Shown here: in pieces, positions 59,854-63,854 of the stretch
Numbering within the stretch: the stretch's first letter is position 1
Layout: every line of letters begins with the position of its first letter
DNA from: Afipia sp.
GTDB lineage: Bacteria; Pseudomonadota; Alphaproteobacteria; Rhizobiales; Xanthobacteraceae
Direction: 5' to 3'
NCBI GenBank assembly: GCA_016201045.1
Contig: JACQDM010000002.1
Location: 682,001-746,000 of the forward strand
Length of the DNA stretch: 64,000 nt
Position numbers and translations under genes: made by a program
Notes under the pieces: generated by a model
The model's input: only the letters and a program-made list of their open reading frames with translations
Told to the model about the DNA's origin: nothing
Databases searched by the model: none

Positions 59854-60393
59854 TCAATTCGCGAGCGCGTTACCCTCGCGGATCGAACAGCTTGCGGCTC
59901 CCGGCTGCATCGAGATGATATGGTACTCTGCGCCGTCAAACCCCTTCATCGTGGCTTGCGCATTGATTTTCCCGATGGTGACCGTCGTCGAACAACTGGC
60001 GAAGGATCCGTCGAACGTCGTCAGAAGTCGCCGCGCAATACCAATATTTTCTCGGACCATGGTGAGCGTGTTGCCGTTAAACTGGATGCCGCCCGAAGAC
60101 GTTTCAGGTCCAGCTTCTCTCTTTCCACCGTAACGCCCAGAGGTATTTGTGACGCGAAGAAACGGTCGTCCGGCGCTGCTGACATAGACAGTTGCCTGAA
60201 ACTGGCCGACCGGATTGGTGTTCATCCCGTCGGAAATCCGTTTGTAAGTCCCGGATTCGCCCCATGTGATCGTGATGGTCTTGTTGTAGAGCTGTTGAGG
60301 CGCGGCTGCGTTAGCGGCGCCGGACAATGAAAGCGTCATCGCCATGAGGAGCGCCGCATGGGTTGTGTTTTTTTTCGATGTTTTGGATGCCAT
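59854..60393 (-). CDS. Small secreted protein of the caspase operon
   Basis: A 179-aa protein with a signal peptide (HAALLMAMTLSLSGAANAAAPQQ) and a beta-rich mature part (TITITWGESGTYKRISDGM, ATVYVSSAGRPFLRVTNTSG, GFDGAEYHIISMQPGAASCSIREG), with two cysteines. I do not recognise the family. It starts 19 bp after the stop of the caspase-fold gene on the same strand, so it is probably co-transcribed and may be a substrate, inhibitor or partner of the peptidases. Confidence 0.6.
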   Translation of the reverse strand: MASKTSKKNTTHAALLMAMTLSLSGAANAAAPQQLYNKTITITWGESGTYKRISDGMNTNPVGQFQATVYVSSAGRPFLRVTNTSGRYGGKREAGPETSSGGIQFNGNTLTMVRENIGIARRLLTTFDGSFASCSTTVTIGKINAQATMKGFDGAEYHIISMQPGAASCSIREGNALAN

Positions 60394-60411
60394 ACCGTTT
60401 AACTCCAAACC

Positions 60412-62187
60412 CTAGTTGCAAATTTCTCCGGTGCCCGCGGAGTTCGCCCGGCAACCCTTGTTGACCTGCCTGCATCCCTGGATTTCAAAGCTGCATATGG
60501 TCTGCATGCCGCCTGTGGCAGGTTTTGCGGCCTCCTTCGGCGCGCGTTCCTCGCGCTTCGGCGCTTCGTCGCGTTTGGCGACTGGCGGCGCGGGCTTCTT
60601 GACTTCGATCTTCTCGCAACTGTTGTCGTCTCCGACCTGATAGCCTGCCTTGCAGACGATCTTGTTGCAGCGATCGCCCTCAGCCTTGTAACCGCGTTCG
60701 CAGATCAGAGGACAGACACGGCTCTGCTTGCTCTTGACCGCGTCGAGCGAGTCGAGGCTTGCAACTTTGACATCGAGCTTCATCCCGGCGTTTTTGTTGA
60801 ATAGTTCCATCGCCTTTTGCGCAGCGGGGTTCCACGTGTCTCCGACAGCGCCGGTGTTGCAGCCGACGCGGCGCAGTTCACCCAGCAAGAGTTTCGGGAT
60901 TTCTGCGACCGCAACGGTGTCCGGCTTCGGAGGTTGCGCGGTCTGATCGGGCGGCGTGAGTGCAGCGACCGCGCCAACGGGCTTTTCCGCTTTCGCCTTA
61001 GCCTCCTCCTTAGCCTTCGCTTCGTCCGCTGCCTTGGCCTGAGCCGCGGCTTTTGCGCGCTCGGCCTCGGCAACTTTGGCTTCTTCAGCCTTCTTCGCGA
61101 GTTCTGCTGCGACGCGCGCCTGCTCGGCCTTGAGAGCTTCGGCTGCGGCTTTGTCCTGCGCCGCTTTCTTCGCACCCTCGATGGCCAGACGTGTTTGTTC
61201 GTCCTGAGCGGCTTTCGCTTTTTCGGTTGCGGCAAGCCGTGCGGCTTCGGCCGAGAGTTTATCACGCTGCGCTTTCGCCAATTCGGTGTAGAGGCCGGTC
61301 GGGTAGGTCGTGATGAAGTAGTCCCACACCGCTTTCGTGCCGACGCGCTCGGCAAGTTCGTAGTCGCGCCGCGCTGCTGCATTCTGATCGGGCGCCGCTG
61401 TGGCCGGCGGCGGTGTCACTGCGATGGCTGGAACGAGGGTGACGTCGTTGCCGCCGAGCGAGCCGTAGACGAAAGGTTCCTGCCGGTTGTTCGTCACTTT
61501 CAGAACGTCGTCGCGCACAAATCCGAACGCCTTGCGCAAATCCAGACCCGGCTTCGGCAGGTATTTGACCAGTGCGGCCGTGAACGGACTGTTCTTGTCG
61601 CCATCGGACGCCGTCGAACCCGCCTTCGCCGCGAACGCGATCAACGTATTCGGACTGGTCGGCTCGACCTTGGCAAGGCCGCGTGTGACTGCGCGGGTGC
61701 CGATCGTGCGCTTCATGGTCTTGTTGAAAGGATTGTCGCGGCACGCATCGAGGATCGCAAGCCGCAGCTGCTTGGCTGGCTCCATCACCGTGAGGATGCG
61801 GTCGAGCGGAATTGCCTCGTCGAACGCATCGATGTCGCGCTCGAGCGACGCATCGACGGGGATAAGGTAGTTGGTGCCGTCGATCTCGATGCCGTGGCCT
61901 GCGTAATAGACGACGGCCACATCGGCATCGCGGGCGGTGTCGGAGAAATCGCGGAGCGCGCGGCGCATTTCATTCGCCTTCAGATCGCGCCGCGAGTCGA
62001 TTACGTCGAAGCCTGCGCCTTTGAGCGTCGCCGTGATCGCCGCGGCGTCATTCACCGGATTGGGCAGCGCCGTGACGTTCTGGTAGGCGGAGTTGCCGAT
62101 CACCAGCGCAACGCGCTTCTCGGCGAGCGCCGGCCCGCAGCCGAGCGCTAACGCTGCAATTCCCAGAATTGCAATTCGGATGCGCAT
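60412..62187 (-). CDS. Secreted caspase-family protein with TolA-like spacer
   Basis: A 591-aa protein. Signal peptide (ILGIAALALGCGPALA), then a caspase (C14) domain from about 23 to 250 with the His-Cys dyad H98 in VVYYAGHGIEIDG and C149 in AILDACRDNPF. A Trp/Tyr helix pair follows (KAVWDYFITTYPTGLYTELAKAQ), then an Ala/Lys/Glu-rich helical spacer (about 320-400; AAQAKAADEAKAKEEAKAKAE). Last comes a Cys-rich module (ELRRVGCNTGAVGDTWN, RVCPLICERGYKAEGDRC, GYQVGDDNSC). Both catalytic residues are intact. The protein is probably periplasmic or secreted. Confidence 0.87.
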   Translation of the reverse strand: MRIRIAILGIAALALGCGPALAEKRVALVIGNSAYQNVTALPNPVNDAAAITATLKGAGFDVIDSRRDLKANEMRRALRDFSDTARDADVAVVYYAGHGIEIDGTNYLIPVDASLERDIDAFDEAIPLDRILTVMEPAKQLRLAILDACRDNPFNKTMKRTIGTRAVTRGLAKVEPTSPNTLIAFAAKAGSTASDGDKNSPFTAALVKYLPKPGLDLRKAFGFVRDDVLKVTNNRQEPFVYGSLGGNDVTLVPAIAVTPPPATAAPDQNAAARRDYELAERVGTKAVWDYFITTYPTGLYTELAKAQRDKLSAEAARLAATEKAKAAQDEQTRLAIEGAKKAAQDKAAAEALKAEQARVAAELAKKAEEAKVAEAERAKAAAQAKAADEAKAKEEAKAKAEKPVGAVAALTPPDQTAQPPKPDTVAVAEIPKLLLGELRRVGCNTGAVGDTWNPAAQKAMELFNKNAGMKLDVKVASLDSLDAVKSKQSRVCPLICERGYKAEGDRCNKIVCKAGYQVGDDNSCEKIEVKKPAPPVAKRDEAPKREERAPKEAAKPATGGMQTICSFEIQGCRQVNKGCRANSAGTGEICN

Positions 62188-62324
62188 TGCGATGCCCCCA
62201 AGAATGCGGAACCAAATCCGCGGCAAATTTCCGGTATTGCGCGAGCGCAAGCCGCTCAAGTTGCCGATTCCCCTCTGTTGTCGGTGACGCGGGAGGGGTT
62301 CACGGAAGAACGTTCTTCTTCGAC

Positions 62325-63854
62325 TCAGTTACACACCAAGGCGCCGCCGTTCATGATGCCGCCGTTCGTGGTCGTGTCGTTGACTACGTGGCAACCACGC
62401 GCAACGGGTCTGCACACACCGCCTGGACAGAACAACTGCCCGGACGGCGCGTCCTGCGCAGCGCGGCGCGGCGGTGTATCGCGATCCGGACGCGATGCGA
62501 CGGGCGGCACATATTTCGGTGGCGGCGGTTTGCGCACGACGATCCGTTCGCAGGTGTTGTCGTCGCCGACTTCGTAGCCATCCTTGCACGTGATCTTGGT
62601 GCAATTGTCGCCATCGACTTGATAGCCGTGCTTGCAGACGAGCGGGCAAATGCGTCCGGTCCGTCCCTTGATGACTTCAAGCGCGTCGAGGCTTGCGATC
62701 TTCACATCGAAGCGGGTGCCGGCATATTTGTTGAAGAGGTCCAGCGAGCGCTGCGCACCGGCATTCCATGTGGGTACGGGATCGTCCGCATAGCAGCCGA
62801 CCCGCCGCAATTCGGTGAGCAACTGCCTCGGCAGGTTATCGTCTCCGGGTGCCGTCGTTCGCGATGTGCCTTGCTGAGGCGCAAGCGCCGCCAGCTTCTT
62901 GCTCTGCGCGCGGGCGAGATCGCTGTAGAAGCCTTCAGGATAATTGGCGATGAAATAATCCCACGCATCCTTGGTGCCGACCTGCAACGCGAGCTCGTAG
63001 TCGCGGCGGATACGGTCCGTCGAGTCGACGGGTGCGAATTGCTGGACAGGCGCGCCCGACACGGGCGGGGTCGCAGCAACAACCGGGCCGGGCACCAGCG
63101 CCACGTCGTTACCGCCGAGCGAGCCGTATATAAACGGCTCCTGCTGGTTGTTGGTGATCTTCAAAACATCGTCGCGAACGAAGCCGAACGATTTGCGCAG
63201 ATCCATGCCGGGCGTCGCGATGTGAGCCGCGAGCGCTTTTGCAAACGGGCTGTTCTTGCCGTCGCCGTCGGCGGCGGTCGAGCCGGCCTTCGCGGCGAAG
63301 GCGATCATGGTGTTGGGATTGACGGGTTCGACCTTGGCGAGGCCGCGCGTACCGATGGCGCGTGTGCCGATCGAGCGCTTCATGGTTTTGCCGAACGGAT
63401 TGTCGCGGCATGCGTCGAGGATGATGAGCCGCAGTTGCTTTGCCGGCTCCATCGCGACGAGAACGCGATCCAGCGGATAGGTCTCGTCGTAGACGTCAGT
63501 GTCGCGTTCGAGAACGGCGTCCACCGGGATCAGGAAGTTGGTACCATCGACCTCAATGCCGTGGCCTGCATAGTAGACGACGGCGATATCCGCATCGCGC
63601 GCCTGATCGGCGAAGTCGCGCAGCGCCTTTCGCATCGTGTCCTTGGTGACGTCGGCGCGCAGCGTAACGGACTCGAAGCCCGACGCCTTCAGCGTCGAAG
63701 CAATCATGGCGGCATCGTTCGACGGGTTGGTCAGCTTCGGCACGTTCTGATAACTGGAATTGCCGATCACAAGCGCGACGCGTTTCTCGGCCGATGCGCC
63801 GGTCGCAGTTAGCGCGAGAAAGAGTGCGGTCAATAAAAGGTGACGGATGCGCAA
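62325..63854 (-). CDS. Secreted caspase-family protein
   Basis: A 509-aa paralogue of the next gene. Signal peptide (LLTALFLALTATGASA), caspase domain with H98 (VVYYAGHGIEVDG) and C149 (IILDACRDNPF) at the same positions, the DAWDYFIANYPEGFYSDLARAQ helix pair, and the Cys-rich C-terminal module (ELRRVGCYADDPVPTWN, RICPLVCKHGYQVDGDNC, GYEVGDDNTC). It lacks the Ala/Lys/Glu spacer and has a Pro/Arg-rich segment instead. It is the first gene of the operon, with a fair promoter 50-75 bp upstream. Confidence 0.87.
   Translation of the reverse strand: MRIRHLLLTALFLALTATGASAEKRVALVIGNSSYQNVPKLTNPSNDAAMIASTLKASGFESVTLRADVTKDTMRKALRDFADQARDADIAVVYYAGHGIEVDGTNFLIPVDAVLERDTDVYDETYPLDRVLVAMEPAKQLRLIILDACRDNPFGKTMKRSIGTRAIGTRGLAKVEPVNPNTMIAFAAKAGSTAADGDGKNSPFAKALAAHIATPGMDLRKSFGFVRDDVLKITNNQQEPFIYGSLGGNDVALVPGPVVAATPPVSGAPVQQFAPVDSTDRIRRDYELALQVGTKDAWDYFIANYPEGFYSDLARAQSKKLAALAPQQGTSRTTAPGDDNLPRQLLTELRRVGCYADDPVPTWNAGAQRSLDLFNKYAGTRFDVKIASLDALEVIKGRTGRICPLVCKHGYQVDGDNCTKITCKDGYEVGDDNTCERIVVRKPPPPKYVPPVASRPDRDTPPRRAAQDAPSGQLFCPGGVCRPVARGCHVVNDTTTNGGIMNGGALVCN

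Follow-up and report, generated by a model that had tools for sequence, protein, structure and literature searches.

In the window, a 64,000-nucleotide stretch of an Afipia sp. genome assembly, three consecutive genes on the reverse strand encode two paralogous secreted proteins with a caspase fold, caspases A (62325..63854, (-)) and B (60412..62187, (-)), followed by a small secreted protein, S (59854..60393, (-)). We tentatively propose that A and B are periplasmic proteases of the Arg/Lys type positioned near peptidoglycan, and that S is a soluble barrel that binds them as a recognition or regulatory partner. Under this proposal, A and B would be exported caspase-fold proteases cleaving probably after Arg or Lys; a degenerate peptidoglycan-binding-type C-terminal module would hold both in the periplasm near peptidoglycan, with the helical spacer of B providing a longer reach; and S, predicted to be a soluble periplasmic β-barrel that may have a sensing role, would bind the caspases, contributing in trans the part that a further caspase encoded in the same genomes has in cis, as its own C-terminal domain. 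S probably works together with caspases, because the S barrel also occurs elsewhere as a fused part of a caspase.

The association of S with caspases is evident from gene linkage. Eleven of the 69 stand-alone S copies, which come from 13 genomes, have a caspase gene within 1.5 kb, compared with 0.71 expected from each genome's caspase numbers (Poisson P about 3e-10). When orthologous places are collapsed to seven contexts the adjacency has P about 1e-5, and a shuffle within the genome of the window itself (G000), where 3 of 14 S copies are caspase-linked, gives P about 0.001. S lies downstream of the caspase in the window and at L058, L059, L125, and L137, upstream at L043, L044, L064, L147, and L119, and in divergent orientation at L121. 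Caspase-linked copies fall in several places on the S-domain tree, where starred, well-supported branches force at least six changes between linked and unlinked labels, and clustering of the neighboring open reading frames identified caspases as the sole family recurring outside conserved synteny. Linkage of S to caspase genes in relatives, on which the earlier note had staked its proposal, is therefore what we found, and it is reinforced by the caspase–S fusion described below. Conservation of the full three-gene order was narrower: A-B-S occurs in G000 and G009 only, and in G023 caspase B is absent and S stands directly behind A. Of the genomes in the genus, the three that carry stand-alone S give 13, 9, and 11 hits to the caspase (C14) family, against 0–6 in the other 26, a suggestive enrichment of C14 genes in S-bearing genomes.

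In seven genomes from genera g1, g6, and g26, an S-related domain occupies the C terminus of a caspase in place of the usual module (L040, at G000:C1:448 kb, and in G002, G009, G014, G023, G033, and G238). The fusion was seen directly in the reading frame of six of the seven and was deduced for G014 from a shared 531-aa frame; in G023 the fused domain is shortened by a stop. Because our family alignment A1 already contained one fused row, homology was retested with a model built from stand-alone copies only, avoiding circularity. This hidden Markov model matched the fused domain along its length (E=1.8e-7 and 6.7e-7), and profile–profile comparison of stand-alone versus fused sequences gave E=2e-7 and a probability of 94%, aligning the two cysteines as well as the final glycine. 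The earlier note had suggested that S could be a target or inhibitor of the caspases; the occurrence of the S domain as part of an intact caspase is at least as compatible with S being a partner or a recognition element. The fusion gene is flanked by genes resembling a Ugp-type ABC transporter in several genomes of two genera (L040, L110, L111, L112, and L113). Apparent fusions, such as those at L061, L063, and L117, were discarded as unrelated open reading upstream of the normal signal peptide of S copies.

Turning to S itself, the gene was delimited by open reading frame calling and family searches and encodes 179 aa from an ATG start 18 bp past the stop codon of B. The earlier note had correctly recognized a small secreted gene behind B, but gave a spacing of 19 bp and an interval ending at the S start codon, whereas the gene continues to 59854. 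Residues from about 32 to 179 (59857..60300, (-)) form the mature domain, which AlphaFold2 (AF2) predicts to be a confident all-β barrel (predicted local distance difference test, pLDDT, 88.4; predicted TM-score, pTM, 0.79). In alignment A1 (37 rows), Y70, C134, C169, and G174 are invariant; the 14 stand-alone copies of the window's own genome are pairwise 27–77% identical in the aligned set. No S-family member had a convincing Pfam match, the S profile had no match among PDB sequences, and a Foldseek search with the S model returned nothing at E<=1e-3. The nearest structural neighbors, at low TM-scores, were LolA and calycin-like barrels, the latter (Ycf58/CpcS-like 3bdr, the NHBA C-terminal barrel, and AttH) ranking at the top; S differs from these in that the best E is 1.2e-3, TM-scores are <=0.4, and there is no sequence match, and a definite lipocalin/calycin assignment was accordingly rejected.

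The S family is multi-copy and patchily distributed, with most of its members in a single taxonomic family. It was found in at least 16 of 300 genomes of that family and in few of the order; among the candidates scored, the window's own genome alone carried it in a class sample of 230 genomes, and the only matches in a phylum sample of 200 genomes were two members of the same taxonomic family. These counts are lower bounds, as a limited number of candidates was scored per genome. Plasmid-borne spread of S was rejected, there being no plasmid match.

Both A and B carry C14 domains (PF00656, E=5.1e-36 and 2.6e-38; 124.9 and 132.5 bits versus a curated cut-off of 21.4), that of A spanning residues 24–244 (63123..63785, (-)). 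Caspase A comprises 509 aa from a TTG start, likewise used in the relatives G009 and G023, and caspase B 591 aa from an ATG start; the two are 64% identical across the N-terminal 343 aa and 44% identical across the C-terminal module. Signal peptides of A, B, and S were judged by eye, that of A covering residues 1–22 (63789..63854, (-)) and ending in ASA ahead of EK. The signal peptides, the H98/C149 dyad, the WDYF stretch, and the C-terminal Cys module that the earlier note described as common to A and B are all present. Among proteins of solved structure, the closest relative of the C14 domain by sequence is the MALT1 paracaspase (E=1.4e-12 over the domain's N-terminal 129 residues), with the dyad aligned. 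Two further residues found in both caspases, D47 and D147 (the latter two residues before the catalytic Cys), align with conserved MALT1 Asp positions, which we take to form the acidic S1 pocket that is the source of the MALT1 preference for Arg. Because this Asp pair is aligned with the MALT1 S1 residues, A and B, if proteolytically active as predicted, likely cleave after Arg or Lys.

A basic specificity raises the possibility that S is itself engaged by the active site. Residues 72–76 of S form a hairpin loop, SSAGR (60166..60180, (-)), identified by loop comparison and lying between two strands of the AF2 model. S could be a substrate or a canonical-loop inhibitor, in which the SxxGR hairpin presents an Arg or Lys at P1, matching the basic P1 expected from the Asp pair, and in which fused copies have lost this residue, avoiding self-cleavage or self-block. 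The loop residue is R, K, or H in all 11 caspase-adjacent copies (8 R, 2 K, and 1 H), R in 48 of 53 other stand-alone copies (5 Q), and E in each of the five fused copies that were compared. However, the loop is no less conserved in copies away from caspases and may be structural, forming a tight turn or a salt bridge; the fused clade represents one event and has diverged throughout, such that Glu could reflect loss of a structural residue; and one of the caspase-adjacent copies has His at this position. We consider a substrate or inhibitor role possible, though unlikely. A more specific version, in which S is the founding member of a novel family of caspase regulators acting in the periplasm, its barrel placing the Arg/Lys loop at the active site as a pseudo-substrate inhibitor or activating substrate, and in which the fused caspase holds a loop-inactivated copy, appears distinctly unlikely. 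If S does present an Arg/Lys loop to the caspase, the locus would encode a system dedicated to caspase control in the alphaproteobacterial periplasm.

Our proposal places A and B near peptidoglycan on the basis of their C-terminal modules (A, 62328..62876; B, 60415..60918; both (-)), delineated for A from AF2, Pfam searches over 35 members, and Foldseek, and for B from Pfam and module family searches. In A, the module consists of a three-helix PG_binding_1-like bundle followed by EGF-like Cys hairpins and a terminal Cys cluster. Its AF2 model has a pLDDT of 83, with blocks of 93–97 over most of the core, and contains helices at 12–25, 39–52, and 63–70 and then short hairpins. PG_binding_1 (PF01471) matches were obtained for 18 of 35 module relatives (best E=1.3e-6), and the Foldseek neighbors, all with non-significant E, included the SleB and SltB3 domains that bind peptidoglycan and the EGF domains of factor IXa; superposition on the SleB N-terminal domain gave a root-mean-square deviation of 1.7 and TMt of 0.65 (Foldseek E=1.3). 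Our preferred reading is that the first half of the module is a degenerate PG_binding_1-like wall-binding bundle and the second half an EGF-like extension, although membership of the Cys half in the antistasin or EGF families was rejected on sub-gathering Pfam scores (Antistasin 19.9 versus 21.2; cEGF 19.2 versus 26.6). The earlier note had proposed a surface ligand for the Cys-rich ends, a suggestion that finds no support: because the module begins with a PG_binding_1-like bundle, attachment to the wall is the more economical reading, and the module is not surface-specific.

In the taxonomic family, the module was found in 51 of 150 genomes and in 23 of 47 genera, mostly on caspases; outside the family, a class-level search gave only weak matches to the helical part. 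Two other carriers were identified. In G178, a Ser/Thr kinase (L216:1-1983, (+)) shares the WD-helix linker and the C-terminal Cys module with the caspases, an architecture that suggests a shared wall-facing sensor module. In G296, a TIR-domain protein (PF13676; L136:3534-5150, (+)) has a likely transmembrane segment and the caspase-type module, and the next gene downstream belongs to the S family. That caspases, a kinase, and a TIR protein all carry this module points to a sensing module, associated with the wall, that is shared within this bacterial family.

Caspase B additionally contains an Ala/Lys/Glu-rich spacer (residues 313–401; 60985..61251, (-)) with 37 A, 15 K, and 15 E in 89 residues; A has none, in agreement with the earlier note. 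The likeness to TolA noted there extends to composition alone, and homology was ruled out, as B scored 15.8 against the NCBIfam TolA model (PRK09510), versus a cut-off of 213.

Several observations weigh against the proposed partnership and wall location. Fifty-eight of the 69 stand-alone S copies lack a neighboring caspase, and none of the 10 S copies of G207 is caspase-adjacent; the fused form is one very diverged, long-branched clade and likely a single event; caspase counts inside the genus are not phylogenetically independent; and the window's own module had no PG_binding match at E<=0.1. Possibly, S is an independent periplasmic ligand-binding or structural barrel family whose nearness to caspases reflects a shared accessory neighborhood or co-regulation, the fusion being an isolated domain recruitment. 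Such independence would accommodate the predominance of stand-alone copies, some in tandem pairs, the patchy distribution, and the copy that adjoins a TIR-domain protein rather than a caspase. However, S–caspase adjacency is far above chance and takes several arrangements, the fusion is retained in three genera, and the TIR neighbor bears the same C-terminal module as the caspases. We regard an independent S family as unlikely, and tentatively retain S as a caspase-binding partner.

The genes of A and B are separated by 137 bp, a gap with no recognized promoter or terminator in a simple scan; a single three-gene A-B-S operon, as the earlier note assumed, is plausible, though not demonstrated. 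The closest relative of B outside its orthologue is the caspase at L043, itself S-adjacent. The 3.6-Mb genome contains 13 C14 genes with varied architectures, and A and B are thus two of many caspases. Others include a secreted caspase whose C-terminal half, read from sequence, resembles a solute-binding protein of the Bug/TctC type (L042:8180-10138, (+), on G000:C7), and a secreted caspase followed by an apparent formylglycine-generating (SUMF1) domain (L039:13585-15438, (+), on G000:C3), an architecture mentioned in PMC3501461. In a scan of public genome contigs with a closer S set, A2, the named relatives are metagenome-assembled genomes labeled Afipia sp., Hyphomicrobiales, and Alphaproteobacteria.

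Assignment to a known anti-phage defense caspase system was rejected, since PADLOC gave partial caspase matches only (E=1.8e-8 and 5.4e-12) and S was unmatched. The roles of bacterial caspase homologs are, to our knowledge, largely unknown, and we know of no substrates or regulators of the exported ones. S offers a concrete handle on these exported caspases, as a putative soluble partner family tied to them by gene linkage and fusion. In the literature, mainly open access, we found no direct account of an exported rhizobial caspase with a small partner, nor any mention of the S family or of its link with caspases; the caspase-coupled S barrel appears to be undescribed.

Relative to MALT1, a cytoplasmic, eukaryotic signaling protease with other accessory domains, A and B differ in setting and architecture. 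They resemble prokaryotic metacaspases and orthocaspases (PF00656) in the C14 domain, the H/C dyad, and the Asp two residues before the catalytic Cys, and differ in being exported, in the wall-type module at the C terminus, and in having a separate protein, the predicted S β-barrel, as a probable partner. A 2012 survey (PMC3501461) reported a putative peptidoglycan-binding domain in 11 of 671 metacaspases, suggesting an extracellular location and wall binding, together with multi-caspase operons, Alphaproteobacteria included, and many possible signal peptides. A and B share this domain idea, their module being degenerate and bearing an EGF-like extension; the S domain could not be seen in that survey because it was Pfam-based and S has no Pfam model. 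A secreted Bradyrhizobium caspase, A5ECX2, with tandem YARHG domains suggested to bind peptidoglycan (PMC3355149), is similar to A and B in its signal peptide, caspase domain, C-terminal extracellular domain, and related host group, but has a different C-terminal domain and no small partner described. Given these two precedents, exported wall-associated caspases are not new in kind.

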